The notes under the pieces are model-generated. The model had not been told where the DNA came from. It ran no database searches and worked only from the letters and a program-made list of their open reading frames with translations. Below are positions 2,145 through 22,616 of a stretch of 22,616 bases of DNA, one piece after another. Location: positions 1 to 22,616 of IMG/VR virus record IMGVR_UViG_3300020729_000109, one strand, 5' to 3'. Numbering within the stretch: position 1 is the stretch's first letter; the number at the start of each line of letters is the position of its first letter. A program made the position numbers and the translations under genes. The stretch is from a virus.

Positions 2145-3344
2145 TTAAGAAAAGAATGTTTCCAGAGAAGAAGCGTTCTCGATGCGATCGTGATGATTAT
2201 CCTGAATCACAAAGTCGGAATTGACGAAGTCAAGTTTACCCTCCAGATACTTTCGAACCATGCGAGCCGGATGACGAGCCGTAGTAACCGGAACGTTCTG
2301 ACAGACATGATTAAGATTGCGCAGAGGATTCAGAAGCTGAAAGTCCAGAGGCATCTTCATGATGGAGAGGACTTCGCGGACATTGAGGAATCGATCCTCG
2401 CAATGATGAGTCAGATGCGTGGGCATGTGACCGACAAAGGCACCGATGACTCCACATGGAACCTCGATCTGCTTGCGCATGATGTTGCCTCCCATGCCAA
2501 GCTTCAGATGCATGGTTTTGCATCTTTCGGCGTGCTTGGAGAAGCCATTACGAGCCATCCATTCGGAGACTTTCATGTAGTCGTGTCCGGATGATTCGAT
2601 CGTTCGAAGGACATTGATCGTTCGTGTTAGCGACTCAGTATACTGACGATGTGACATGCCGCCGAGAATTTCCTCGAGCAGGTAACGGTAATAAGGATCT
2701 TGAGAAGGTACTTTTTCATTGGCTAAAATCTGAAACATCGGATCGTTTTTGGCGCAGCGTTTGGCCAGATCAATCGTCTCCTCGATACGTTCGGATTTAG
2801 CATTCTTGTCCGTGTACTCGAGGAGAGGAACACGATCCTTCTCCTTCCAGAAGAAGTAGAACGTGCGTTCGCGAACCTGAGAGAGTCCATGAAGGCGAGA
2901 GGCCGTACGAAAGATGGAGAACGTGTATCCGTTCTTGTGCCCAATCTTGCGAAGGCGATCAACGACCGGCTGACCAAGCTTGGACGCCAATCGCGGCGCA
3001 TTCTCACCCCACATAACACGAGGACGAACGTTCTCGAGCACGTACTCCGCCGAACGGTACATCCACTCATTCATCTTGGAATTTGAAGCCGCGGATTGTG
3101 ATAGAGAAGAGAGTCCGCTACATGGACAGACCGTGTTGACCACATCAACCGAGTGTGAATGCTTCTGACCCTGATCGAGTAGAAAGTATGGCACCTCGTT
3201 ATTGTAGTAGTTGAGTAGATGAGCGTCATTGTCCTTGAATGGAGAGAACGAGAGGATGTAGTCCGGTCGAGTATTGTCGAACTCGAGTTGCTGAGCGATG
3301 GTCTCTCCGCCGATTAGAGGAACTATGGATGCGTGTTTAATCAT
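2145..3344 (-). CDS. DNA (cytosine-5)-methyltransferase-like protein
   Basis: The 399-residue protein carries the ordered motif set of C5-methyltransferases. A divergent motif I is SIVPLIGGETIAQQ (residues 6-19). Motif IV is VCPCSGLS with the candidate catalytic Cys75. Motif VI is GENAPRL (113-119) and motif VIII is GLSQVRERTFYFF (153-165, Gln156, Arg158, Arg160). The C-terminal LNVREVLSIMKMPLDF (320-335) and HVCQNVPVTTA (346-356) match motifs IX and X. Residues 180-315 would be the target-recognition region. Family members flip out a cytosine and attack C6 with the cysteine. The start overlaps the end of the upstream SGNH-like gene by 4 bases (ATGA). Motif I lacks the usual FSGxGG, so the cofactor or product may differ. 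In a phage that may already hydroxymethylate cytosine this enzyme is unexpected. Confidence 0.8.
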   Translation of the reverse strand: MIKHASIVPLIGGETIAQQLEFDNTRPDYILSFSPFKDNDAHLLNYYNNEVPYFLLDQGQKHSHSVDVVNTVCPCSGLSSLSQSAASNSKMNEWMYRSAEYVLENVRPRVMWGENAPRLASKLGQPVVDRLRKIGHKNGYTFSIFRTASRLHGLSQVRERTFYFFWKEKDRVPLLEYTDKNAKSERIEETIDLAKRCAKNDPMFQILANEKVPSQDPYYRYLLEEILGGMSHRQYTESLTRTINVLRTIESSGHDYMKVSEWMARNGFSKHAERCKTMHLKLGMGGNIMRKQIEVPCGVIGAFVGHMPTHLTHHCEDRFLNVREVLSIMKMPLDFQLLNPLRNLNHVCQNVPVTTARHPARMVRKYLEGKLDFVNSDFVIQDNHHDRIENASSLETFFS

Positions 3345-4459
3345 GCAAAGAATTCTTCGAGGATAGTCGTGTGATTGTTCATATCTGATTTATTCATCTT
3401 CTTCAGAGACTTTTTCTTGTCCGGCACTGGAAATTCAGACGTACCATTCCAGTGAGGATAGAACTCTCGAGAGAGGTGAATCGAATGAGGTTTCTCCATG
3501 TATTTGAAATCGAGCTCTCCCTTGGAGTTTAGAAGGTAATCGGTCCAACGAATGAAGCGAATCCCTCTACCTTTACAAAGATTTTCAAGATCTCGATTAA
3601 ATACTCTGCGAATATCATCTCTTTGTTGCCAAGAACCCCAGAAAGGTTTGCCTTTATAGTAACCAGTCTTAGGAAGCTTACGTGACTCATTTTCAATTGG
3701 AAGGAGTTCATAGACTGATTTGTTTTTAATAGATAATGCATCTACGGCTTGCACATATCTTTTGGCCAATGAAGTAGCATTTTCAAAGGCATCACCCTCG
3801 ATGCGGCACAGATGATGGCGCACGTCGATGTTGCCAAAGTAACACTCTATAGATGATACCCTATCAAGGCTCGTGAATTCATCGATGAACGTATTCAGGC
3901 CAGTGTTCAGAGCGCCGTTCAGAGTCTTGAACGGCACGGAGTTCACGGTCCATCCCGGTCGATGCATGCAGATGGCATGAGAGTCTCCAATGACGATCTT
4001 GTCCGTGACGTGTGGAAAGCGAACTCGAGTCGACTCGAGGCGCATGCGCTTGAGATTCGCCAGATCCGTCTCGAGCCATTCGGGCTGAATCTCCTTGGAG
4101 TTCTTTCGAGCATTCTCGATGCGTTCGGCAATCATCTCATCGATGGCCGGAAAGTCAACGGCCAGAGAGTACACCTTCCCTCTGAACTTCGAGAAGTTAC
4201 GAATGTTCCATGCATATGGAAAGGATTGAACTCCGCCAAAGAGGTTCAGTGTACCGGTCCAATCGGAACCCCAATACACATACACAACATCATACTCATT
4301 ATGATCTTCATGGGCATTACCGGCCCAATTGACGTCAACGCGATCATACTTGCCGGTCTGACGAATCTGATCCGCGTAGATGACGCCTTGTGCGGATCGA
4401 TGGGATGCCAGACGAGGAACTATCGGAATGAAGGGTGCGGTTACAAGAGCTTTCATCAT
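3341..4459 (-). CDS. SGNH/GDSL-hydrolase-like protein in the modification block
   Basis: A 372-residue protein that starts at one of two adjacent ATGs (4459 or 4456). A GDSH motif near residues 158-161 (block I, nucleophile Ser160 if real) is followed by FGNIDVRHH near 208-216, which resembles block III (GxND). There is a late His-rich stretch, PHSIHLSREFYPHWN, where the Asp/His block V would fall. SGNH enzymes are esterases, acyltransferases or deacetylases. Preceding residues 1-130 form a separate alpha/beta-looking part containing VVYVYWGSDWTGTLNLFGG, which I do not recognise. There is no signal peptide, so it should act in the cytoplasm. It overlaps the C5-methyltransferase-like gene by 4 bases and lies 19 bases after the gene upstream. 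The context suggests a role in decorating DNA bases. The fold call is moderate and the function is unknown. Confidence 0.62.
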   Translation of the reverse strand: MMKALVTAPFIPIVPRLASHRSAQGVIYADQIRQTGKYDRVDVNWAGNAHEDHNEYDVVYVYWGSDWTGTLNLFGGVQSFPYAWNIRNFSKFRGKVYSLAVDFPAIDEMIAERIENARKNSKEIQPEWLETDLANLKRMRLESTRVRFPHVTDKIVIGDSHAICMHRPGWTVNSVPFKTLNGALNTGLNTFIDEFTSLDRVSSIECYFGNIDVRHHLCRIEGDAFENATSLAKRYVQAVDALSIKNKSVYELLPIENESRKLPKTGYYKGKPFWGSWQQRDDIRRVFNRDLENLCKGRGIRFIRWTDYLLNSKGELDFKYMEKPHSIHLSREFYPHWNGTSEFPVPDKKKSLKKMNKSDMNNHTTILEEFFA

Positions 4460-10632: not shown

Positions 10633-10707
10633 TGGTGACGCTATCGAGAATCGAACTCGAGCTGTCTCCTTGAGAGGGAGAAGTCCTAACCGCTAGACCA
10701 TAGCGTC
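10633..10707 (-). tRNA. tRNA-Glu (anticodon CTC), CCA encoded
   Basis: Read on the minus strand, the acceptor GACGCTA pairs with TAGCGTC, the discriminator is A and CCA is encoded. The anticodon stem is TCTCC/GGAGA with loop CTCTCAA, giving anticodon CTC (reads GAG, glutamate). The T arm has the standard TTCGATT loop (GTTCGATTC). The D arm contains AGCGGTTAGGA. All four arms are intact. It lies between the 214-residue gene (6 bases upstream) and the membrane microprotein. Confidence 0.96.
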
Positions 10708-10713
10708 GATGGA

Positions 10714-11358
10714 TTAGTTATAGTTCTGAGTCTCGTTGTCTCGACACTCACGACAACGCAGAGCGATCCAGTGATTGGACCTCGACTTCACATCATGATT
10801 TGATCCACAGGCCTCGCATGTTCGTGCGGACCAGGACTCGGCCATGGAGATCAAGCCATCCACATATTCGTCCGAGACATTCTTGTAGATACGCAGAGTT
10901 CCGAACTTCTCCTTGACCTGTTCAAAGGTAACTTGAGGATGAACCTTTCGACCAGAGAGCTCTAGGTAAAATATCCATCTGGCGTCCCATCTGTCTCGAA
11001 AAGCCACCAGTTTCTTCCATTGACCGTCATATCGAGCATATTCAGGAGAACTTACCGGAAAGCTTTGTGGAACTCCGGCCTTCGTGATGAAGTGCCGATA
11101 AGCCCAACGATCGATGAATCGATTGTAGAAGCGATGCCACTCACGAAATACCCAGTAAGTGATCGGACTATACTTAGGAACATATTCATCACGATCACAG
11201 TGATGTTGAATTTGTGCACAGAGTGTGTCGAGGATGTCATACCATCCGTCGTCACATTCGATTCCCCAGCACATACACGTCTCCGTCATTGGCTTCGACG
11301 CGGAGGCAAAGATCTTTGGATACTTGTCGTAAAGGGATTTTTGTTTTTTAGGTGTCAT
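10714..11358 (-). CDS. Conserved phage protein with C-terminal zinc site (214 aa)
   Basis: A 214-residue protein with a front CMCWGIECDDGWYDILDTLC (residues 28-47). The C-terminal part is VTFEQVKEKFGTLRIY, SDEYVDGLISMAE and SARTCEACGS...LRCREC. The two CxxC pairs at the end look like a zinc ribbon. I recognise the combination of CxCGxxxGDGW, the VKEKFGTLRxY element and the CExCG tail as a widespread phage hypothetical family with no known role. The ATG at 11358 follows directly on the U-rich tail of a three-way-junction RNA (TTTTTTTATT-ATG), so that structure may influence its expression. No membrane segment is seen. Trp and Tyr are abundant in the middle (YWVFREWHRFYNRFIDRW). Confidence 0.82.
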   Translation of the reverse strand: MTPKKQKSLYDKYPKIFASASKPMTETCMCWGIECDDGWYDILDTLCAQIQHHCDRDEYVPKYSPITYWVFREWHRFYNRFIDRWAYRHFITKAGVPQSFPVSSPEYARYDGQWKKLVAFRDRWDARWIFYLELSGRKVHPQVTFEQVKEKFGTLRIYKNVSDEYVDGLISMAESWSARTCEACGSNHDVKSRSNHWIALRCRECRDNETQNYN

Positions 11359-11372
11359 AATAAAAAAATCGA

Positions 11373-11451
11373 GCCGAATCGGAGTAAGCCGTTGTCGAGT
11401 GACTAGTATCTTACCGGACGGGGCATGGAGCCCCTTGTCCTCCGATTCGGC
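11373..11451 (-). ncRNA. Candidate structured RNA: perfect three-way junction with U-tract
   Basis: An 11-bp perfect helix (GCCGAATCGGA at 11373-11383 with TCCGATTCGGC at 11441-11451) closes two inner hairpins with almost no unpaired junction bases. One is GTAAG/CTTAC (11384-11388 with 11410-11414). The other is GGACGGGGC/GCCCC-tt-GTCC (11416-11424 with 11430-11440). On the minus strand the outer helix is followed 4 bases later by seven U residues, then by the ATG of the 214-residue gene. I found no T-loop or D-arm, so it is not a tRNA. It lies 4 bases downstream of tRNA-Met in the transcript. It may be a small RNA with its own terminator, a processing element, or a leader of the downstream gene. 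Confidence 0.55.
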
Positions 11452-11455
11452 AAAT

Positions 11456-11530
11456 TGGGAGCAGGGGACGGAATCGAACCGCCGACCTGGTGGTTATGAG
11501 CCACCCGATCTACCACTGATCTACCCTGCA
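11456..11530 (-). tRNA. tRNA-Met (anticodon CAT), CCA encoded
   Basis: On the minus strand the anticodon stem GGTGG/CCACC encloses loop CTCATAA, giving anticodon CAT. The D arm is GATC...GATC with TA before it (positions 8-9), and the T arm is GGCGG-TTCGATT-CCGTC. The acceptor is GCAGGG/CCCTGC with a possible unpaired T1/T72, then C and encoded CCA. It lacks the three consecutive G-C pairs of an initiator anticodon stem. Elongator Met is the first choice; a lysidine-modified Ile tRNA cannot be excluded from sequence alone. Confidence 0.93.
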
Positions 11531-11620
11531 GTTAAAATTTATTCTGAGATAATTCTATCATGAAAGGCCGCATCTCAGTCATTCGGCCACTTACTCACTT
11601 CCGCTACCGCTCTAAACATA

Positions 11621-11697
11621 TGGCGCGAGTGACGGGGCTCGAACCCGTAACCTCTGCCGTGACAGGGCAGCGCTCTAACCAATTGAGCTACACCCGC
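11621..11697 (-). tRNA. tRNA-Asp (anticodon GTC), CCA encoded
   Basis: On the minus strand the acceptor GCGGGTG pairs with CACTCGC, the discriminator is G and CCA is encoded. The anticodon stem CTGCC/GGCAG encloses CTGTCAC, giving anticodon GTC. The D arm (AGCTCAATTGGTTAGAGC) and T arm (ACGGGTTCGAGCCCCGT) are canonical. It is the first of three tRNAs in transcript order. The 90 bases between it and tRNA-Met hold no gene. Confidence 0.97.
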
Positions 11698-12278: not shown

Positions 12279-13271
12279 TTACGACAGAATTCGATCGACT
12301 CGAATCATCACTTGCTTGACGGCCATCCACATGTCGAGGTAAGTATAGGTTGCCAATCGTCCCAGGAAGATTGTCTTCCTCTCCGCATCAGCCAGCTTCT
12401 TGTATTCCATATAGACCTTCAGGCCTTCTCCGAATGGGATTGGATAGAACGGAACGTCTTCATTTCCGCAAGTCTGAGGATACTCCTCGGTGATGACAGT
12501 CAATCCTTCATGATTTGCAGTGAAGTAACCGTGATCGTACTTTCGAGTGTAGTCGTTCGTTCTATTGTTCTCGTTCTGAATGCAAAACGGCATGCGCTCA
12601 CTCGTTACTTTATGAACGAATCTGAGAGAACGATAAGGAAGGACACCGAATCGAAAGTTGAAGTACTCGTCGACCTTTCCAGTGTAGACGATCAGGTCTG
12701 TCGAGTGCTTCTTCCATTCGTCTGAGGCGCATCCGAGCTCTACAGGAATGCCTTCGAGCATGGCTTCGAACATTTTCGTGTATCCGTTTCGGGGAATGCA
12801 CTGATACTTCTGGCCTTCGAACCAGGTGGGATCGTCACAATCCTTGGTCTTCGGGATGCGATTCGTGATGCTTGCTGGGATTTGATCGAACGGAACTCCC
12901 CATTGCTTTTCGGAGTACTCACGAAACATATACTCAATGATCTCTTCCTGAGACAGCTCGCGACCAATCTCGGCGACGGTCTTTCGAGAATATGGAAGCG
13001 ATACTAGCCCAAGGCGAGTGTTTCCCTTCGGCTGAAGCTTAAATGGAGTCCATTCTGTGAAACGGGATAGGAATTCAAACACTCGCTCATCGTCCGTGTG
13101 AAAGACGTGAGGGCCATAGTTGTGAACCGTCACTCCACATACATTGGAATCATAGCAGTTACCGCCGATGTGCTTGCGCGAGTCGAAAATGCGGCACTCA
13201 TGTCCGGCATCGGTCAGGAGTCGTGCGGCCGTGATGCCAGAGAGGCCGCATCCGACGACGTTAACTTTCAT
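12279..13271 (-). CDS. glf: UDP-galactopyranose mutase
   Basis: A 330-residue FAD enzyme that converts UDP-galactopyranose to UDP-galactofuranose, the donor for galactofuranosyl transfer. The N-terminal Rossmann loop is GCGLSG (residues 8-13). GGNCYD, NYGPHVFHT, YSEKQWG, GYTKMFEAML, FRFGVLPYRSLRF, EEYP, FYPIP and FLGRLATYTYLDMWMAVKQ follow in the family order. Bacterial Glf proteins are usually about 370 residues; the difference appears as shorter loops, and all the signature motifs I expect are present. The start overlaps the methyltransferase stop by 4 bases. It is the last gene of the glycan operon and implies that one neighbouring transferase uses galactofuranose. Confidence 0.95.
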   Translation of the reverse strand: MKVNVVGCGLSGITAARLLTDAGHECRIFDSRKHIGGNCYDSNVCGVTVHNYGPHVFHTDDERVFEFLSRFTEWTPFKLQPKGNTRLGLVSLPYSRKTVAEIGRELSQEEIIEYMFREYSEKQWGVPFDQIPASITNRIPKTKDCDDPTWFEGQKYQCIPRNGYTKMFEAMLEGIPVELGCASDEWKKHSTDLIVYTGKVDEYFNFRFGVLPYRSLRFVHKVTSERMPFCIQNENNRTNDYTRKYDHGYFTANHEGLTVITEEYPQTCGNEDVPFYPIPFGEGLKVYMEYKKLADAERKTIFLGRLATYTYLDMWMAVKQVMIRVDRILS

Positions 13272-13921
13272 AGCTTTTCAAATTCAGGCAGACGTATGGT
13301 CTTCGTCAGGATGTCGAGGAGATGGTTTCGTTTCTCAAATGTAGCCTGCCAATCTTTGAAGTTCTGCTGAGGAGAAAATTGCTTTTTCACTTGCACGAAC
13401 GTCATTCCCCATGATTCCGGATAATGTTTCGACTCGACAAATTCAGTCTTTTGATCCAGACTCGAGATGCCGAAGAACGCTTTGACCGCTTCTTCTGGCC
13501 TTTCCCAGACTATGCCTCCGTACATATCGTGCTTGTCTTTCGGCCATGCGGTGTCATGGAATACGACATAGCCACCTTCCCTGATGTGAGGGAACCAGAA
13601 GAATAGCTCACAAAGAACCTGCTCTTTGATGTGGCACGTGTCAATGAAGAGCAGGTCGATGGATCCTTTGTTCCAGTGTTTGCCGATCGTAACTGAGTCT
13701 CCGAGTATGAATGCATATCGTTCATGATTCGTCAGATAAGATGGAACCTGAGCAGAGTCAATGTCGACTCCGTGCACTCTATTATTTCGAGCAGAAGCAT
13801 CGCGAATCATCATCATCGACGACTCTCCGCTTCTAACGCCTAGATCCACAAACATTCTGTCGGATCCAAGCGAATCGACGGTTTGTGCTAGAATCTCTTG
13901 ATTTGGTCCTAGATCGTTCAT
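13268..13921 (-). CDS. SAM-dependent methyltransferase of the glycan operon
   Basis: A 217-residue class I methyltransferase, similar to the Methyltransf_24/cephalosporin-hydroxylase-like group. The SAM loop is VDLGVRSGESS (residues 25-35), the acidic ribose-binding residue lies in HGVDID, and IDLLFIDTCHIKEQV, followed by GGYVVFHDTAW, completes the fold with a metal-site-like D...H pattern. Such enzymes in glycan clusters often O-methylate a sugar. It overlaps the GT-B glycosyltransferase upstream and glf downstream, each by 4 bases. The substrate is inferred from context only. No membrane segment or signal is present. Confidence 0.82.
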   Translation of the reverse strand: MNDLGPNQEILAQTVDSLGSDRMFVDLGVRSGESSMMMIRDASARNNRVHGVDIDSAQVPSYLTNHERYAFILGDSVTIGKHWNKGSIDLLFIDTCHIKEQVLCELFFWFPHIREGGYVVFHDTAWPKDKHDMYGGIVWERPEEAVKAFFGISSLDQKTEFVESKHYPESWGMTFVQVKKQFSPQQNFKDWQATFEKRNHLLDILTKTIRLPEFEKL

Positions 13922-14802
13922 AATAAGTATTCCTTGATTTGCATGTCCAAGTCAGAACATTGATGTTTAAGAATGTTTTTACTATTAGCAAATTCGTCTA
14001 TAATCGTCTCATATGAAGTCAGACATCGTCGAATCACTTCACCTATCATTCGGTGATCGCCGAGTTTATACATGTCTGGAACCGTTACGTCTTCACTAAA
14101 AGCCGCTGAACCTTTACGATTTGTGATAACACAGTTACCGAAAAGCAAAGCTTCACGAGGGATTCGATCCTTTCCAGGATGATTCCCAAAGTCTATATAA
14201 ATCTTGCTCTTGCACAGGAGATCGATGACCTGTTCTCGATTCAGTCCTGAGATCGGTCTGAAGTCGATGTTCGGATTCTCCGTCATGATCTGCATCGTCA
14301 CTTCGTACCCCTTGGCCGGATTATAGCATACGAAGTCTTGCTTCTCTGATAGAGGAATGTCTTGAATCGTATTGGCACCAAAGATGTAATCGTTCAGCAT
14401 GTGAACATTCTTAGCTCCATTGCGAGTGACGTAGTCGTAAGCGTACCGCGACTGACAGAAGTGAGTAATTGAGGTGTCGTGAAAGTCCTGAAACTTAGAA
14501 TGATTGTTGTCAACGCTTAGCCACCAGATAGCCCGTGATATCGATTTGAATGAAGGAAGCATCGCGGTCCACACTTCAGGAACGATTAGTAGACTTTCAG
14601 CTTCGTCTGGAACAGAGAATCCATACTCTGAAAACTTGTAGTGAGCATAGATGTTTAGGACCGGATTCGAGCAATGACGATCAAAGATCGGTATAGCTTT
14701 ACCTCCAAGTCGATTGATGCCGTCGATCAACTGATACAATGATTCGATCCCTCCGGCCTGATACTGAGCCGGAGTCATCACATAAATTGCTTTGAATCTC
14801 AT
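13918..14802 (-). CDS. GT-B fold glycosyltransferase (GT4-like)
   Basis: A 294-residue protein. The front has GGIESLYQLIDGINRLGGKA (residues 17-36), the acceptor-side loop of GT-B enzymes. The back has YIDFGNHPGKDRIPREALLFG and then CVITNRKGSAAFSED, which matches the donor-binding S...E.G..LEA...G.PVI pattern, with Glu in REALLFG as the nucleotide-sugar contact. It transfers a sugar from an unknown donor. The protein is shorter than most GT4 enzymes (about 370) but both Rossmann halves seem present. It overlaps its upstream and downstream neighbours by 4 bases each. The donor cannot be told; galactofuranose is possible because glf lies two genes on. Confidence 0.75.
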   Translation of the reverse strand: MRFKAIYVMTPAQYQAGGIESLYQLIDGINRLGGKAIPIFDRHCSNPVLNIYAHYKFSEYGFSVPDEAESLLIVPEVWTAMLPSFKSISRAIWWLSVDNNHSKFQDFHDTSITHFCQSRYAYDYVTRNGAKNVHMLNDYIFGANTIQDIPLSEKQDFVCYNPAKGYEVTMQIMTENPNIDFRPISGLNREQVIDLLCKSKIYIDFGNHPGKDRIPREALLFGNCVITNRKGSAAFSEDVTVPDMYKLGDHRMIGEVIRRCLTSYETIIDEFANSKNILKHQCSDLDMQIKEYLL

Positions 14803-15500
14803 GTGCGCACGTACTTTCTTCTTACATATTCAAGTTCAGATTGCTTCTTCGCATCGCTAACCAAAGACGAGCTTATCTGATTCGAATGCTCGCGATTTGC
14901 CACCGTGATCTGATTGCAGATCGCTGGAAGCCCATGCTTATCATACAGCTGCTTATAGTAGTCGACATCCATCAGCCATATCAAATTCTCATCGAATCGC
15001 AGGACGTTTTCATTCTTGAACATAATGACACTCGGCGAGCTGATAGTATTTGTGCCATATTGAATCTCATCATGATAGAATGGAAAGTTCGGTCGTTCCA
15101 GCCTGACACCGTCCGGAGACTGGCATGAAGCCGTTGCCAACCAGTAGTTTTGACTTCCCGCGAAACAGAACATCATTGCTTCAAGACTTCGATCGGAAGT
15201 TAGGAAGTCATCTTGAAAGAGTGGCTTTATCACCTTTCCACATGCGTGATGAATCGCATTGTTGGTATTGTGAGAAGAGTTACCTCGATTCATCGCTTTA
15301 ACATATCGAATGAGTAAACGATCATTCCATCGTTCGCATAGTCGATTGATCCCATCGTCGATGCTCTGATCGGACACGATCACTTCGAAAGACTTGAATG
15401 TCTGACGAGTTAGTATTGAAAATGAATGTTCAAGGTAAGCGACGCCTTGACCGGCCATTTCATAAGTTGGAATGCATATCGATACGATCGGATCGTTCAT
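14799..15500 (-). CDS. Family 2 glycosyltransferase (GT-A)
   Basis: A 233-residue GT-A enzyme. VSICIPTYEMAGQG (residues 6-19) is the opening beta-strand and loop, FEVIVSDQSIDDG (38-50) is the nucleotide-binding segment, and FQDDF carries the metal-binding DxD-like acidic pair. WLMDVDYYKQLYDKHG resembles the later acceptor/base motif (ED.D). It transfers one sugar to a growing glycan in the cytoplasm. There is no membrane segment, so it is not a polymerising synthase. The start ATG overlaps the stop of the GT10 gene. A donor cannot be assigned from sequence. Confidence 0.88.
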   Translation of the reverse strand: MNDPIVSICIPTYEMAGQGVAYLEHSFSILTRQTFKSFEVIVSDQSIDDGINRLCERWNDRLLIRYVKAMNRGNSSHNTNNAIHHACGKVIKPLFQDDFLTSDRSLEAMMFCFAGSQNYWLATASCQSPDGVRLERPNFPFYHDEIQYGTNTISSPSVIMFKNENVLRFDENLIWLMDVDYYKQLYDKHGLPAICNQITVANREHSNQISSSLVSDAKKQSELEYVRRKYVRT

Positions 15501-16327
15501 AGCTTGGGTAGATTTAGATTCTCAAGTATTTCACTCAGGCGATAGAAATAGTCACCCCAGTAGAGAGCCCTCCGGCAGTTATCTTCGATTGCCTGACTCC
15601 TCTTATGATAGTCTTCTTCCGTTAGACCATTGACGATTTGAATGAGTTCGTTCTCGTCATTGAACGTGATGTACCCATCTGGATTGAAGAAGTCTGATAG
15701 ATTTGGACATCCCCAGTATATGGGAACGGTCTTGGTCAGGAAGCTGTCAATCACTTTCTCCGTAAAGTAGTTCTTATTCCTCGAGTTTTCGACCGCGATA
15801 TGGAACATGCTTTTCCAGCATACTACTTTGTCTTGAGGTTCGCATTGAAAGATCCAGCTGTTTGGAGTTGTCACTGAAGATCGAGAGTTGAAGATGCTGT
15901 GTCTAAGCCGATGACCCTCGATGGCATTCTTGACACCGCAAAGAAATGAAGTTTCAAACTTCTTTTCATTGATGCTGATATTCTGATATGTCCGCTTGTT
16001 GTCCCAGATGAAAGACGTACCAAAGGGAAACATCATGGAGTTTGGACACTTTGACAGTATTGAATCTCCCCAAGTCAAAATCAAATTAAAAGCTCGATGA
16101 TTTGTGATCGCCCAGTCGTGTAGACCAAACAATTGATTCGGTTCCTGTATGACGAGTATGTTACATGCGCTAAGTTTCAGCTGATCTGTATTCGGAATAA
16201 AGTCGGTGAATACGGTAACGTTCCTATCGGAGAAGTCGACTTTTTTGCTCGGAAGAATGAAGTCTTCTCCAGTCAGAAGAGTCTTCTCATAAAGAGAAGG
16301 TGGTATGAAGGTCGAGAAGAATTTCAT
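15497..16327 (-). CDS. GT10 family alpha-1,3/4-fucosyltransferase
   Basis: A 276-residue protein with the GT10 signature in its second half. FHIAVENSRNKNYFTEKVID is followed by TKTVPIYWGCPNLSDFFNPDGYITF, corresponding to F.lafENs...dYvTEK...al..gtVPv..G..n...f.P..SfI. The Glu-Asn and Tyr-x-Thr-Glu-Lys residues bind GDP-fucose. The front half (WGDSILSKCPNSMMFPFG) is the acceptor-binding part and is shorter than in Helicobacter enzymes. I use the ATG at 16327, which overlaps the stop of the GT11 gene by 4 bases. Such enzymes add fucose to GlcNAc-containing glycans, as in Lewis antigens. GDP-fucose must come from the host, because no fucose-synthesis gene is in the window. Confidence 0.9.
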   Translation of the reverse strand: MKFFSTFIPPSLYEKTLLTGEDFILPSKKVDFSDRNVTVFTDFIPNTDQLKLSACNILVIQEPNQLFGLHDWAITNHRAFNLILTWGDSILSKCPNSMMFPFGTSFIWDNKRTYQNISINEKKFETSFLCGVKNAIEGHRLRHSIFNSRSSVTTPNSWIFQCEPQDKVVCWKSMFHIAVENSRNKNYFTEKVIDSFLTKTVPIYWGCPNLSDFFNPDGYITFNDENELIQIVNGLTEEDYHKRSQAIEDNCRRALYWGDYFYRLSEILENLNLPKL

Positions 16328-17139
16328 ATAATGATCCAGTTTTTCTGATACAGGTCGCTGATATTTGCCTCCGCCAGGTGCTGACGAAACCACACAGACG
16401 GAGCTATAACTTTCTTATTTGGATTAGAGTTTAGCCAACTTCCCCACCATGAGAACGTTGAGTTTGCGATGATATTGTGCTGGCACAGGGACATCAGGCA
16501 TAGCTCGACGAACTGATTGTTAGCCGTGCAAAGACGGACCGAATCGCTCGGACGAATCTTTTGCCCCAGGAATGCCGGATCGTCCGTGATGTAGACGAAG
16601 TCATATGGCTTATCCAAAAAGTTCTCTTCAATGGCCCTATGGTAATATGTTTCATCGCATAAGCCATGCCATGTATTTTGCACATAGTCACCTCGCCGAA
16701 CATGAATCGATACCGTCTCATGATCAGGACGAAGATATTTCTTGGCTTCTTCGATGATCTCGGGTTTGAAAGTGAATTCACGTCGTACCCGATCTTCAAT
16801 GTGTTCAAAGTATCGATGAGTTTGAAAGTATCCACGTAGACATACATTATCACCTGTATGAAAGAATTTCTCTTGAAAATGAAATTCATTTGGACTATTC
16901 TCAATGGCAAACTTATACTCGCCAGGAACACAATCCTTACACGACAGATTAAATGCCTTATCAACCGTCATGGCGTGAAAGGTATTATCAATCGGAAATT
17001 CTTTCCACGTAAGAGAATTTCCATATCGTCGATCGATTCCCCAATCGAGATTCTGTTTAGTCGCGATGCCCATCAGAGCCGCATATTGAAACATTTGATT
17101 GCCCAACCTCCCATTAGGTCCTATGAGTGCCGTAATCAT
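16324..17139 (-). CDS. GT11 family alpha-1,2-fucosyltransferase
   Basis: A 271-residue protein with all GT11 motifs. GRLGNQMFQYAAL is near the start (residues 10-22), VSIHVRRGDYV is the central GDP-fucose-binding HxRRGDY, and NIIANSTFSWWGSWLN is the C-terminal motif. The ATG at 17139, 4 bases after the upstream stop, places the first motif at the usual distance from the N-terminus; longer frames upstream are read-through into the GT2 gene. It adds fucose in alpha-1,2 linkage, usually to a galactose. It is directly coupled to the GT10 gene. Two fucosyltransferases of different linkage in tandem in a phage are uncommon. Confidence 0.95.
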   Translation of the reverse strand: MITALIGPNGRLGNQMFQYAALMGIATKQNLDWGIDRRYGNSLTWKEFPIDNTFHAMTVDKAFNLSCKDCVPGEYKFAIENSPNEFHFQEKFFHTGDNVCLRGYFQTHRYFEHIEDRVRREFTFKPEIIEEAKKYLRPDHETVSIHVRRGDYVQNTWHGLCDETYYHRAIEENFLDKPYDFVYITDDPAFLGQKIRPSDSVRLCTANNQFVELCLMSLCQHNIIANSTFSWWGSWLNSNPNKKVIAPSVWFRQHLAEANISDLYQKNWIII

Positions 17140-17143
17140 AATA

Positions 17144-17839
17144 TCATTTATAGTATTTTTCCGCACGAGGTAGTCCATCTGCTCCATTGACGAAGACGAT
17201 GGCCTCAGGTGGAGGAACTTTGCCGTGACCGGTATAATGAACGGCAAACTTAGTCGTATAGTTTACCGTAGGCTTGAAAGATCTCGCCACATGTTGCTTA
17301 GGCAAATGATGCCAGAAGATACGATCTCCGATAATACCGAGTTTCTTCTCCTTAAATGTCCAGAATCCGATGAGATTGAAAGCCGATCGAGCGATCAGAT
17401 AGCAATTCGTATCACAAAAGTTAACGCCGTCGGATTCGAGGCACGTGGCAATGACTTCACCTTGCAGATCTCGCAAAGTCCTTCCAGTCGTAACGATCGG
17501 AGTCTGATCCGTAACTTTAGATATAGCCTCGGCTACGTGATCGGATTCATACCAACAGTCCGCATCGAGGAAGCACACGGCGTCGAATCCTTGATTACAG
17601 GCAATGGCCGCACCAATCGCTCGTGGAGTGTCACCATAGTCTCCGCAGTTTGGAATCGAAAAATGACGATTCTTGCCGAATTTCACGCTCGGTAAATCAT
17701 CGATCCAGGCTTGAGGATGACCATCCGCAACAATGAAGTGAGACACATATGGGTGAGTCTGACTCGTCACGGAACGCATGCATCTGACCAGAGTATCGGG
17801 ATCTTCCTTGTAGTAGGGAGTAATGACGGCGACATTCAT
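17144..17839 (-). CDS. Family 2 glycosyltransferase (GT-A)
   Basis: A 231-residue GT-A enzyme starting at ATG 17839 (MNVAVITPYYKED), 4 bases after the primase stop. The opening strand VAVITPYYKEDPDTLVRCM, the segment HFIVADGHPQAW and the metal-binding FLDADCWYE (DAD, near residues 118-126) are the family features. GDRIFWHHL and FKPTVNYTTKFAVHYTGHG lie where acceptor binding is expected. It is the first gene of the glycan operon. The frame remains open far upstream into the primase gene, but those residues are rich in Arg and Pro and are not part of the fold. The donor is unknown. There is no membrane segment. Confidence 0.9.
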   Translation of the reverse strand: MNVAVITPYYKEDPDTLVRCMRSVTSQTHPYVSHFIVADGHPQAWIDDLPSVKFGKNRHFSIPNCGDYGDTPRAIGAAIACNQGFDAVCFLDADCWYESDHVAEAISKVTDQTPIVTTGRTLRDLQGEVIATCLESDGVNFCDTNCYLIARSAFNLIGFWTFKEKKLGIIGDRIFWHHLPKQHVARSFKPTVNYTTKFAVHYTGHGKVPPPEAIVFVNGADGLPRAEKYYK

Positions 17840-19703: not shown

Positions 19704-20783
19704 TTAAAAGAAGCTTTCAAGGCTACCGACATCTTCGGACGTCCAGCCGATCGACTTTAGAATCAGATCGAGAGGTTCCAAGAACGTCTTCTCGAATTGA
19801 GTGTCATAGTCGACAGAATTATGTAGGCCGAATTCCTTCGGCAGATCTCCTGCGGCCGGAAAGGCGATCACGTTCTCCTGAATCTCATTTGGAATCTTCA
19901 GATACACGAAGCGAATCTTGTCGCCAGACTGAATGCCTCGATAGGTGGATGTCAGGCCCTTGGCCTCGATCCAGTGATTGTACAGAAGTGCTCCACGAAC
20001 GTGAATCGGTGTTCCCTTCTGATAGATGGTTCCATTACTCTGCCAACCATCAACATCTGAAGTTCCTCGAGGAAAAGCGACTTCTCGAGGACTCATGGAA
20101 GAAAACTGCTTGCGAAATTCCGCGATGGCTTCCTGAGTAGCCGCCTTATTGCCAGTCATAATGATCTTGAACATGCGCTTCATGGCCGAACGGCAGACGG
20201 CCGGAGTCGACGACTTGATCGCTTCAATACCCATGATCTTTAGCTTGGGTTCCGTGTACCGCACTCCCTCATTGTCCAGAACGTTTAGAATGTACCGCTT
20301 CTTGGCCGTCCATACCGCACGATCCGCGATGGCCTCGCGCTTCATCTCCATGCGATTCACGTAAGCGTAAGTGGTCTTGGCCAGTCCGTCGAAGGCCTTG
20401 GTTAGTTCCAGACCGATACCCTTCTCGTAGAATTCATTGAGAAAAGCCACTGAATCCTTGGGCTTAAACTTGTCAACGACGTCCTTCAGACATACGTACA
20501 CGGAATCCGTATCGACGGCCAGCACACGATCCTTTGGCTTCGTTTCTTCCATCATCGCCGACACCCAGCGATTGACGGTCTGCTCGGCCAGTCGAATCGT
20601 CGTCTGACCGGACAGAGTCACGGCCTCGGCCACCTTAATGTTGAAGTAGCGGAAAAAACGATTTCCGAGTGCTCCGTACAAACTATTGAGAAGTACCTTC
20701 AGTGACTGTTGTTCGATTTCCAAGTTAGAAATCTGGGTATCGAGTTCTTTCAATTCCTTTTGCAATAATAAAAATTCACTCAT
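19704..20783 (-). CDS. 43: Family B DNA polymerase, C-terminal piece (fingers helix, palm, thumb; gp43 type)
   Basis: This 359-residue piece completes the polymerase whose front half lies at 21719-22616. It starts with an amphipathic helix (EFLLLQKELKELDTQ), then motif B KVLLNSLYGALGN (Lys29, Asn33, Tyr36, Gly37), and motif C VLAVDTDSVYV (Asp91, Asp93). TAKKRYILNV, EPKLKIMGIEAIKSSTP and VRGALLYNHW match T4/RB69 gp43 by eye. The final SLESFF resembles the C-terminal sliding-clamp-binding peptide of gp43. It has its own ATG, overlapping the endonuclease stop (ATGA). It cannot work alone, because motif A and the exonuclease are in the other piece. The two must assemble as a heterodimer. The break is in the tip of the fingers. 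Confidence 0.95.
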   Translation of the reverse strand: MSEFLLLQKELKELDTQISNLEIEQQSLKVLLNSLYGALGNRFFRYFNIKVAEAVTLSGQTTIRLAEQTVNRWVSAMMEETKPKDRVLAVDTDSVYVCLKDVVDKFKPKDSVAFLNEFYEKGIGLELTKAFDGLAKTTYAYVNRMEMKREAIADRAVWTAKKRYILNVLDNEGVRYTEPKLKIMGIEAIKSSTPAVCRSAMKRMFKIIMTGNKAATQEAIAEFRKQFSSMSPREVAFPRGTSDVDGWQSNGTIYQKGTPIHVRGALLYNHWIEAKGLTSTYRGIQSGDKIRFVYLKIPNEIQENVIAFPAAGDLPKEFGLHNSVDYDTQFEKTFLEPLDLILKSIGWTSEDVGSLESFF

Positions 20784-21688
20784 AAATTCACATCATTTAT
20801 ACTCTCAAAGCACTCCATTTTGCTTTTCTGAATGTCGACGTCGGTAAATCTGACTATTTGATAACCGGCAGAAATAGCATCCTTTGTGTGCTTTGAATCT
20901 TTAATTTTTTGTTCTTCGGTCTGATGCCAATATACACCATCTATCTCCACGAGAAGTTTCTTTGAAGGAATATAGAAATCATATCTATGACCCTTCGATT
21001 TAATTTGATATTGCCTAACATACTCAATTCCAAATGAGTTGCACCATACAGCAAAATCTCTCTCAGGCTTGGTGAATGAATATGAATTTGAAATGCCAGG
21101 TCGATGCACTCCAATTATACCACTATTCGCAAGATTTCTAGCATGCTGTTTTCTATCGTCGGTCCAATAAACACTCTGATCGTTTAATGGAATGTCATGA
21201 AGCTTAAGTCTGGATAGAATCGTATTATTAGTAGTTTTGAAAATTTTTGCAATGTCATTCGAGCTCTTTTTTTCATCTCTGTACATGCTGATTATATCTT
21301 CATCCGGTAAATCCTTTAAGAGTGATTCTGAGATTCTCTTCCTCTTCGCCGGTGTATTTTTCGTATTGATCAAGTCAGGAAATTGTCGCCGGATTCTTTT
21401 ATAGAAATCCGTGTAATTGAGATGATCTCTTATGCATATCGCTCTTAAACTTTCGCCGCTTTTGAGTTCGCCGGCAATCCGCAAAATGATAGCGTCATCC
21501 AGTGTTATATTCTTTGCGGTGTTTTTATTGTATGCATGTCTGATCGGAATTATCCCTTTCAAAGATAGCTCTCGAATAGCAATACGGTATGAAATTCCCA
21601 ATCGTTCGCAAATCTCTGGTAAATTCATAGTTTTATTCATCGAAAGTATGGTATCAATATGCAAGTCGATGCTTATTTTACGTGACAT
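20780..21688 (-). CDS. Vsr/DUF559-like homing endonuclease inserted in the polymerase gene
   Basis: A 302-residue, AT-rich gene filling the gap between the two polymerase pieces. Three helix-turn-helix-like segments lie at about residues 20-45 (LPEICERLGISYRIAIREL), 75-100 and 138-162 (SNDIAKIFKTTNNTILSRL). The C-terminal nuclease domain has Glu209, YDFYIPSKKLLVEIDGVYWH (Asp237, Glu248, Asp250, His255) and YQIVRFTDVDI, the Vsr/very-short-patch-repair-type fold seen in EDxHD homing endonucleases of fractured phage genes. The N-terminal modules would recognise the polymerase gene and the C-terminal domain would cut it, spreading the insert. The ATG is preceded by a perfect hairpin and the stop overlaps the polymerase C-piece start. 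No intein or intron features accompany it. Confidence 0.85.
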   Translation of the reverse strand: MSRKISIDLHIDTILSMNKTMNLPEICERLGISYRIAIRELSLKGIIPIRHAYNKNTAKNITLDDAIILRIAGELKSGESLRAICIRDHLNYTDFYKRIRRQFPDLINTKNTPAKRKRISESLLKDLPDEDIISMYRDEKKSSNDIAKIFKTTNNTILSRLKLHDIPLNDQSVYWTDDRKQHARNLANSGIIGVHRPGISNSYSFTKPERDFAVWCNSFGIEYVRQYQIKSKGHRYDFYIPSKKLLVEIDGVYWHQTEEQKIKDSKHTKDAISAGYQIVRFTDVDIQKSKMECFESINDVNL

Positions 21689-21722
21689 ATAGCTATGAAT
21701 GTATTATTATTTTCATAGCTAT
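21689..21722 (-). promoter_or_regulatory. Perfect 11-bp hairpin directly before the endonuclease start codon
   Basis: ATAGCTATGAA (21689-21699) and its exact inverse TTCATAGCTAT (21712-21722) flank a 12-base AT-only-plus-one-G loop. In RNA the 3' arm touches the AUG of the endonuclease and the 5' arm contains the UAG stop of the polymerase N-piece. It would hide the initiation region after the polymerase piece is translated, as hairpins do before several T4 homing endonuclease genes. There is no U-tract, so it is not a standard terminator. Confidence 0.6.
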
Positions 21723-22616
21723 TTATCATTATTTTGCTTCAATTGTTCAATCTTTTTTACAATAATTTCACGTTTTCTTTTTAATGAAAGGGTTTCATTT
21801 TTTGCGAGTTTTCTTTTAGTATACAGCTCCTCAACCAGAGTCGGAATGATGCCCTTCACGTCCTTTCGAAAGCACGCTCCGTTGGCCGCAACACAGACTC
21901 CAGGATCCTCGTCGAAGAGCGGCTTACCGGTCAACACGGCATCGATGATCTGATTCGGATCGACCTTCATCGTCACGTGTGAGATGTAGGTTTCCGGAGA
22001 CATGTTGTACTGCACGATGAGATTAGGATACTCCGAGTTGATGTCACATGAGAGCACCCACTCATGCATTCCTTGCTGAACGTCCTTGACGTATCCACCA
22101 GCAAACTGAGGCACATGAGATGGAGGCTCGGATTGAAAGGGAACGACGACATTCCTATTGGCCAGCTTTCGAAAGATGATGGAATCCCAGATCGCCGTGG
22201 TTCCCAAAGTGTCCGCGTAATTCACACCACCCATGTATGACATCATCATCACAAGTTGAATCAGACCGAGCTTCTCTTCGAGGCGATCTACGAGCTCCAC
22301 ATCTTTTATGTTGTACTCCAAAAATTTTTGATGATCCGCATGATAGAGGTCATCGAGAGTGCCTTCATATTCCAACTTGCTTTCGTCGAGAACAACCTTG
22401 GCGATGTGATCGAGCGTGTACTGTTCCTGAGCACCATACGTGTAGCCAAACTTCTGAAAGAGATCCATGTAGTCAAGCTGTTGAATGCCGACGAGCTCAT
22501 ACATCAGCTGCATGCGACCTTTGAGCTTTACTTCCTTGGATTCAATGATGTTCCAGGGACTTAGCATCTTCGAAGCCTCTTCTCCACCAAGCTTGGAGAT
22601 TCGAGTGGCCAGATAC
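21719..22616 (-). CDS. 43: Family B DNA polymerase, N-terminal piece (3'-5' exonuclease end and palm motif A; cut by window edge)
   Basis: The frame is open to the window edge (in-frame codons from 22615), so the true start lies outside; the visible part is 298 residues. YLATRISKLGG, QQLDYMDLFQKFGYTYG and HQKFLEYNIKDVELV (exonuclease motif III, Tyr and Asp of YNIKD) match T4/RB69 gp43. Next come WDSIIF, then motif A LSCDINSEYPNLI with the catalytic Asp, where the usual SLYPS is NSEYPN, and then YNMSPET and GIIPTLVEELYTKRK. The piece stops with a lysine-rich helix (LKRKREIIVKKIEQLKQ) about where the first fingers helix reaches the tip. The remaining motifs are in the piece at 19704-20783. The last 100 bases are far more AT-rich than the rest. 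Confidence 0.95.
   Translation of the reverse strand, partial: YLATRISKLGGEEASKMLSPWNIIESKEVKLKGRMQLMYELVGIQQLDYMDLFQKFGYTYGAQEQYTLDHIAKVVLDESKLEYEGTLDDLYHADHQKFLEYNIKDVELVDRLEEKLGLIQLVMMMSYMGGVNYADTLGTTAIWDSIIFRKLANRNVVVPFQSEPPSHVPQFAGGYVKDVQQGMHEWVLSCDINSEYPNLIVQYNMSPETYISHVTMKVDPNQIIDAVLTGKPLFDEDPGVCVAANGACFRKDVKGIIPTLVEELYTKRKLAKNETLSLKRKREIIVKKIEQLKQNNDK

Follow-up and report, generated by a model that had tools for sequence, protein, structure and literature searches.

A gp43-type DNA polymerase encoded in two pieces around a Vsr-like nuclease gene, and the recurrence of its break point among phages

INTRODUCTION

How can the gene of an essential DNA polymerase be broken by a nuclease gene and still provide a polymerase? 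The question is raised by a 22,616-base viral stretch from IMG/VR (record IMGVR_UViG_3300020729_000109, positions 1 to 22,616; this whole stretch is hereafter called the window). According to the list of open reading frames of this record, its minus strand carries, in this order, the 3′ part of the N-terminal piece (N-piece) of a gp43-type family B DNA polymerase, a gene for a Vsr-like nuclease of the EDxHD class, and the C-terminal piece (C-piece) of the polymerase (Table 1). A first-pass annotation made from the sequence had proposed that the polymerase is split at the tip of its fingers by a homing endonuclease gene, with neither intein nor intron, and that this break point and nuclease type may be new. 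Of more interest than the single case in the window is that the split recurs among phages and was, in one case, apparently transferred.

RESULTS AND DISCUSSION

Two polymerase pieces with a break at the fingers tip

The polymerase is encoded as two proteins in separate frames, and both match gp43 families. The N-piece matched the full-length family phrog_262 (E = 1.4e-92) and the half-length family phrog_2062 (N half, 502 positions; E = 1.1e-90), and the C-piece matched phrog_262 (E = 6.4e-125) and the half-length family phrog_1918 (C half, 382 positions; E = 8.4e-118). Two separate frames thus jointly match gp43 with the break in the fingers, as in the split polymerases named 43A/43B, and the two half-length families hint that polymerase halves exist in other genomes too. 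In an alignment to RB69 gp43, the N-piece covers residues 225-502, and the C-piece begins at residue 550. Because the N-piece starts only at RB69 residue 225, it is incomplete: the first ~212 family positions of the polymerase lie off the contig. Exonuclease motif III and motif A are present as first described, but the exonuclease motifs that precede them are encoded beyond the contig end.

The active-site residues are shared out between the pieces, as had been claimed. D105 (exonuclease motif III), D191, R268, and K272 of the N-piece correspond to RB69 D327, D411, R482, and K486; motif A reads DINSEYP, and the two fingers residues R268 and K272 are followed by a 33-residue tail that ends in QNNDK at the stop codon. 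The C-piece opens with a head of 32 residues, in which a heptad-like pattern can be seen by eye, and further comprises motif B (KVLLNSLYG, residues 29-37), motif C (DTDS, within AVDTDS at residues 89-94), and the remainder of the palm and the thumb. Residues R482 and K486 and the motif B lysine contact the incoming nucleotide.

An AlphaFold2 model of the intact nearest relative (locus L006, ~80% identical to the window) had a mean pLDDT of 88.1, with finger helices at residues 468-496 and 502-532, and its first PDB match was RB69 gp43 (2dy4_B; Z 45.8, root mean square deviation 4.6 over 823 residues). Judged by alignment to this model, the break would fall in the tip loop between the two finger helices. 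The span from ELY to NSLYG is 48 residues long in L006, and the window has 33 + 32 residues in its place. This comparison puts the break at the fingers tip, the position originally proposed, and a working site would need both chains.

Six near relatives have sequence across the site (L006 and L008-L012), and all six are intact; the record of each has one family B polymerase match, and these records are possibly fragments. Within the window's own record, itself an incomplete genome, the only family B profile matches are the N-piece and C-piece stretches. Compared with four intact relatives, the proportion of nonsynonymous differences was 0.096-0.120 for the N-piece and 0.131-0.201 for the C-piece, and that of synonymous differences, at sites near saturation, was 0.59-0.76 and 0.61-0.75, respectively.

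The N-piece ends at a TAG codon, and the nuclease gene starts 33 bases on in the same frame, with three further stops between them. Since four in-frame stops (TAG, TGA, TAA, and TAA) separate the two, no single-base error could join them, which excludes such a sequencing error or frameshift. The stem of a predicted RNA hairpin includes the stop codon of the N-piece as well as two bases of the start codon of the nuclease (minimum free energy, -21.9 kcal/mol; z -3.20; matched by 1 of 200 dinucleotide-shuffled sequences), and the hairpin possibly controls translation of the nuclease. As a general trait of such genes, a start hairpin was rejected: by mononucleotide shuffling, z was -3.9 in the window and -2.7 at the oxygenase-like gene of L070 (see below), but only -0.7 to -1.6 at five other nuclease genes. 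The hairpin is therefore retained as a local observation.

Table 1. Features of the split polymerase locus (positions in the 22,616-base window)
Feature	Position	Strand	Length	Remarks
gp43-type family B DNA polymerase N-piece, 3′ part	21719..22615	-	298 aa	5′ part off contig
Vsr-like/EDxHD-class (DUF559) nuclease gene	20780..21688	-	302 aa	
Polymerase C-piece	19704..20783	-	359 aa	
ATGA overlap, nuclease stop/C-piece start	20780..20783	-		
Predicted RNA hairpin	21683..21728	-		N-piece stop codon and 2 bases of nuclease start codon in stem
AT-rich tract, proposed mobile unit	20688..21820	-		GC: N-tail 0.235, spacer 0.20, nuclease gene 0.365, C-head 0.344

A Vsr-like nuclease between the pieces

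The nuclease matched PF04480 (DUF559) with 31 bits (cut-off, 20.6), and its score against the Vsr family PF03852, 18.1 bits, was under the cut-off of 27. It also matched PDB entry 3r3p (E = 2.3e-5), which carries the file name of a mobile intron protein and which we take to be I-Bth0305I, and two PHROG families, phrog_503 (E = 1e-12) and phrog_559 (E = 9e-12). Its nuclease domain lies at residues ~206-298 and includes D237, E248, and H255; these three residues and G251 are invariant in 6/6 aligned sequences, the window's included. The N-terminal part appears helical, with three helical triplets in a poor, low-confidence single-sequence model (pLDDT 45.3), and a search for a helix-turn-helix there gave no Pfam match at E 0.01. 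By these sequence matches, the protein is assigned to the Vsr-like/EDxHD class, as the first-pass annotation had it, and the gene is probably a selfish DNA-cutting gene.

The sole phage match under 1e-5 was to Streptococcus phage vB_SagM-GXN1 (E = 2e-7, 38% of the query). At ~1700-2700 of that locus (L248), one long frame contains, by eye, a Vsr-like nuclease, an intein-like sequence, and an apparent large terminase, and the record has no feature annotated there. Hef-like phage homing endonucleases and I-Bth0305I, which are EDxHD/Vsr-like, share the nuclease domain with the window; the Hef-like protein of Vibrio phage VAP7 aligned over 92% of the length at 23% identity (E = 5e-3). Neither sits inside gp43, the VAP7 gene lying among structural genes and 3r3p being a mobile intron protein by name. 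The nuclease was absent from the six records of the nearest relatives, a weak negative that had no positive control.

Recurrence of the tip break among gp43 loci

We surveyed gp43 loci by four scans of viral contigs, with C-pieces of split polymerases as queries and at most the best 80 loci kept from each, and added three named phage loci. At least 242 loci were obtained: 202 intact, 34 split, and 6 without the N-part, which were left out (L007, L023, L142, L145, L212, and L214). The break lay at the fingers tip in 31 of the 242, some of them near-copies (L165 and L004 are one phage); the set is biased by its split C-piece queries and, in three of the four scans, by the choice of the best loci of longer lists, and 31/242 is therefore no estimate of frequency. 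The breaks of L118, L120, and L204 lie at other positions, and these loci do not count among the tip splits; L151 has a second break besides the one at the tip. In L118 and L120, an HNH gene at ~2942-3650 (PF01844, E = 4.9e-9 in L118) breaks the polymerase between motif A and the fingers, as an intron or a free-standing gene.

With the window, Acinetobacter phage 133 (L245), and Vibrio phage vB_VmeM-32 (L246) added to the 31, the same break was thus found in at least 34 loci, both with and without an endonuclease, as the first-pass annotation had suggested looking for. What lies in the gap varies. Nuclease genes occupy it in 6/34, namely the window, L005 (GIY-YIG), L246 (DUF559), L107 (phrog_655 homing-endonuclease type), L151 (assigned to the same type through 75% identity to the L107 nuclease), and L112 (HNH, phrog_374). 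These make up at least three classes: GIY-YIG, HNH-like (two PHROG families), and DUF559/Vsr-like (two remote members). The gap holds a 2-oxoglutarate (2OG)-oxygenase-like gene in 3/34 (L070, scanned; L086 and L087, by eye), a small gene of ~85-90 codons in 10/34 (L059, L069, L168-L173, L175, and L176), several small genes in one (L245), and no gene in 14/34. The gene at L070:3499-4005 is 2OG-Fe(II)-oxygenase-like (PF13640, E = 3.2e-8), a cargo between polymerase halves. Two of the small genes were scanned, L168 matching phrog_527 (E = 2e-4) and L170 giving no match, and the others were judged by eye, as was a KKGDVVSLVT.TGEFVGKF-like sequence in the small gap gene.

The summed length of the finger ends was greater in split loci of the short-fingered clades (57-89 residues) than in intact loci (42-55 residues in 202/202). 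The C-head was counted from the first in-frame Met or, in L170 and L171, where none was found, as the whole stretch after the stop; the one exception, L112 with 37, has a misassigned start. Longer fingers were also considered as a general adaptation to the split and rejected, T4-like splits having 71-83 residues versus 86 in intact RB49 and 93 in intact Aeh1.

On a quick tree (239 rows reduced to 151 at 92% identity), which comes with a warning of long branches, the state must change between intact and split at least 10 times, with 8 of these changes forced by starred branches. A careful tree of 79 chosen rows, which include all 23 split rows of the 151-row tree and, in addition, intact Aeh1 and RB49, needs at least 11 (bootstrap range, 11-12), with 9 forced by starred branches. 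In the latter, the window is the sister of intact L006 (100/98) within an otherwise intact group. Such counts do not separate splitting from rejoining: the fingers-tip site is broken, or rejoined, many times. The listings and passages of the accessible literature, a range that most subscription papers fall outside, hold no description of this recurrence.

The split and its nuclease gene appear to have been transferred together in one lineage

Split L107, which has a nuclease gene, and intact L095 encode sister polymerases (100/100, 79-row tree) with C-parts that are 97% identical. Beyond the junction, their DNA is 87-98% identical; in contrast, identity is 47-67% over the ~330 bp before the N-piece stop and 45-78% over the first 90-120 bp of the C-piece. 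In those same flanks, L107 is 80-92% identical to L151, which has the same nuclease and lies outside the sister pair, and away from the junction these two are mostly 65-90% identical. This pattern is what homing with co-conversion of the flanks predicts, that is, a nuclease gene traveling with its own split finger ends, and from these comparisons the split in L107/L095 appears to have spread together with its nuclease gene. A further set of loci may record the opposite step. Finger ends are similar, by eye, in L112, which has an HNH gene, and in L098, L105, and L115, which have none, suggesting that the nuclease was lost and the split kept; the 79-row tree does not join L112 with these three, so transfer of the finger ends is also possible.

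A comparable tract may exist in the window. The AT-rich tract (Table 1) lies between polymerase bodies with GC of 0.491 and 0.509, and the region matching the N-tail and C-head has 0.41-0.58 in four intact relatives. Amino acid identity to L006 falls to 25-40% in the outermost windows of the finger ends, whereas L006 and L008 are 70-90% identical in the fingers. The composition and low identity of these ends are compatible with co-conversion.

How the window could have acquired its split

Our preferred explanation, which we consider likely, is that a homing endonuclease gene of the free-standing kind brought its own finger halves with it and left a two-chain, still active polymerase. The Vsr-like/EDxHD nuclease would cleave the gene of an unsplit polymerase close to its conserved motif B sequence; when the cut is repaired with a split donor as template, the nuclease gene would be copied together with the donor's two finger ends, a co-conversion that we infer for this lineage. 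Of the resulting enzyme, the exonuclease, motif A, and the counterparts of R482 and K486 in the fingers would come from the N-piece, and motif B, motif C, and the thumb would come from the C-piece. Joined through their finger helices, which are somewhat longer at the tip, the two chains would work as a single polymerase. The hairpin at the start of the nuclease gene may limit how much nuclease is made, and translation of the C-piece likely proceeds by termination-reinitiation at the ATGA overlap.

Several observations weigh against this account. (i) PDB entry 3r3p has alanines opposite D237 and H255, in what may or may not be a mutant chain. (ii) In an exact-peptide scan of viral contigs and another of genome contigs, no close relative of the nuclease turned up at any site. 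(iii) No donor was found, so the argument for co-conversion in the window's lineage is one from composition and similarity. (iv) A second stretch of the N-piece, codons ~211-230, is off the junction and also falls to 40-60% identity with intact relatives; low identity is thus by itself no marker of the tract. (v) The selection measured on both pieces may mostly concern the time before the split. (vi) Since the T4-like splits do not exceed RB49 and Aeh1, lengthening of the fingers is no general rule.

The order of events could also have been reversed, the polymerase being split first, through a small insertion or another element since lost, and the nuclease gene settling later in a safe gap. 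The 14 empty gaps and those with non-nuclease genes speak for this order, which a review also raises for Aeromonas phage 25 (PMC2988022). We nevertheless regard it as unlikely for the window, where the six near relatives are intact and GC is low throughout, from the finger ends through the nuclease gene; empty splits in other loci can equally be explained by nuclease loss of the kind that L112 and its counterparts suggest by eye. Somewhat less probable still is a plain insertion of the nuclease gene after which the finger ends drifted and no co-conversion took place. A weakly constrained tip would diverge fast, and lysine-rich helices favor AT-rich codons; third-position GC, however, is 0.176 in the N-tail versus 0.608 in the body and 0.417-0.854 in the corresponding region of four intact relatives, and replacement of a tract is seen in another lineage, L107/L095.

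That the polymerase is dead, in a decaying gene or a defective phage, is very unlikely. Although only a 22.6-kb fragment of the genome is known, the active-site residues that we checked are retained, the two reading frames are uninterrupted and conserved, and phages with split polymerases have been isolated. Scarcely credible, finally, is a hidden intron, intein, or recoding event that joins the pieces into one chain, despite a group I intron close to this site in 43B of phage 25 and a split-intein PolB described in phage MIJ3 (PMC6892783), because four in-frame stops follow the N-piece, no Rfam intron match was found at the gathering threshold in the window or up to E = 5 in 20500-22000, and no intein family was among the Pfam matches (E 0.01) of the N-piece, nuclease, and C-piece. 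By these searches, the locus is neither a fractured gene with a split intein nor a group I intron insertion, in line with what had been proposed.

Known systems with a divided polymerase or a similar nuclease

The break point is not new. Phages 25, 65, 133, and vB_VmeM-32 are all broken at the fingers tip, and this part of the first-pass annotation falls. Aeromonas phage 25 (DQ529280), like the window, has a nuclease gene between gp43A and gp43B; unlike the window, it has T4-type long fingers, a group I intron in 43B near NSLYGALN, and a gap nuclease annotated as GIY-YIG (phrog_314, E = 3.5e-46; Pfam GIY-YIG models under cut-off). Its 43A and 43B co-purify and have polymerase activity, according to the review (PMC2988022). 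The Aeromonas phage 65 group (NC_015251), with more relatives among the matches listed, has 43A/43B, in phage 65 with no gene between the halves, and in Acinetobacter phage 133 (HM114315) eight small annotated genes, none listed as a nuclease, separate gp43A and gp43B.

Nor is the nuclease class new at this site, since the deposited record of Vibrio phage vB_VmeM-32 (KU160494) has a DUF559 protein in the gap (PF04480, 22.2 bits; cut-off, 20.6), annotated only as hypothetical. At 178 aa, it is shorter than the window nuclease and remotely similar to it, and the polymerase coding of this phage, unlike that of the window, is broken at further places. The replication region of vB_VmeM-32 is heavily invaded: a SegG-like gene lies between two parts of its uvsX-like coding, and the record carries a HintC note.

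Split gp43 does occur in Aeromonas phages, as had been stated, but not with MobE: the gap of phage 25 holds a GIY-YIG gene, and mobE splits nrdA of phage Aeh1, as given in the same review (PMC2988022). As in the window, an essential enzyme is divided in Aeh1 by a homing endonuclease gene that is free-standing, and the Aeh1 enzyme works as two chains; the enzyme is a different one, and the nuclease is of the HNH type.

Other genes of the window

A sugar/glycan gene block at 12279-17247 encodes a UDP-galactopyranose mutase, a methyltransferase, and glycosyltransferases of families 10 and 11, and adjoins three tRNA genes at 10633-11697. A C-5 cytosine DNA methylase family gene (PF00145, E = 6e-9) lies at 2145-3344, near uvsX and a helicase gene.

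Implications

Split gp43 is described from few isolates in the papers and annotated records that we examined, and the survey adds its recurrence and the variety of nucleases and cargo in the gap. Through this recurrence, the tip of the fingers stands out as a site at which family B polymerases are naturally split. A possible reading, which we offer tentatively and for which the case is not quite balanced, is that the tip break is a transferable trait: at least three classes of homing endonuclease would use the spot and carry adapted split finger halves, so that an essential polymerase is broken without being inactivated, and the split would remain as a scar or a cargo slot after loss of the nuclease. 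Intact/split sister pairs such as L095/L107 and L006/window offer material on how the split of an essential enzyme is tolerated and on how a split may travel with its nuclease.

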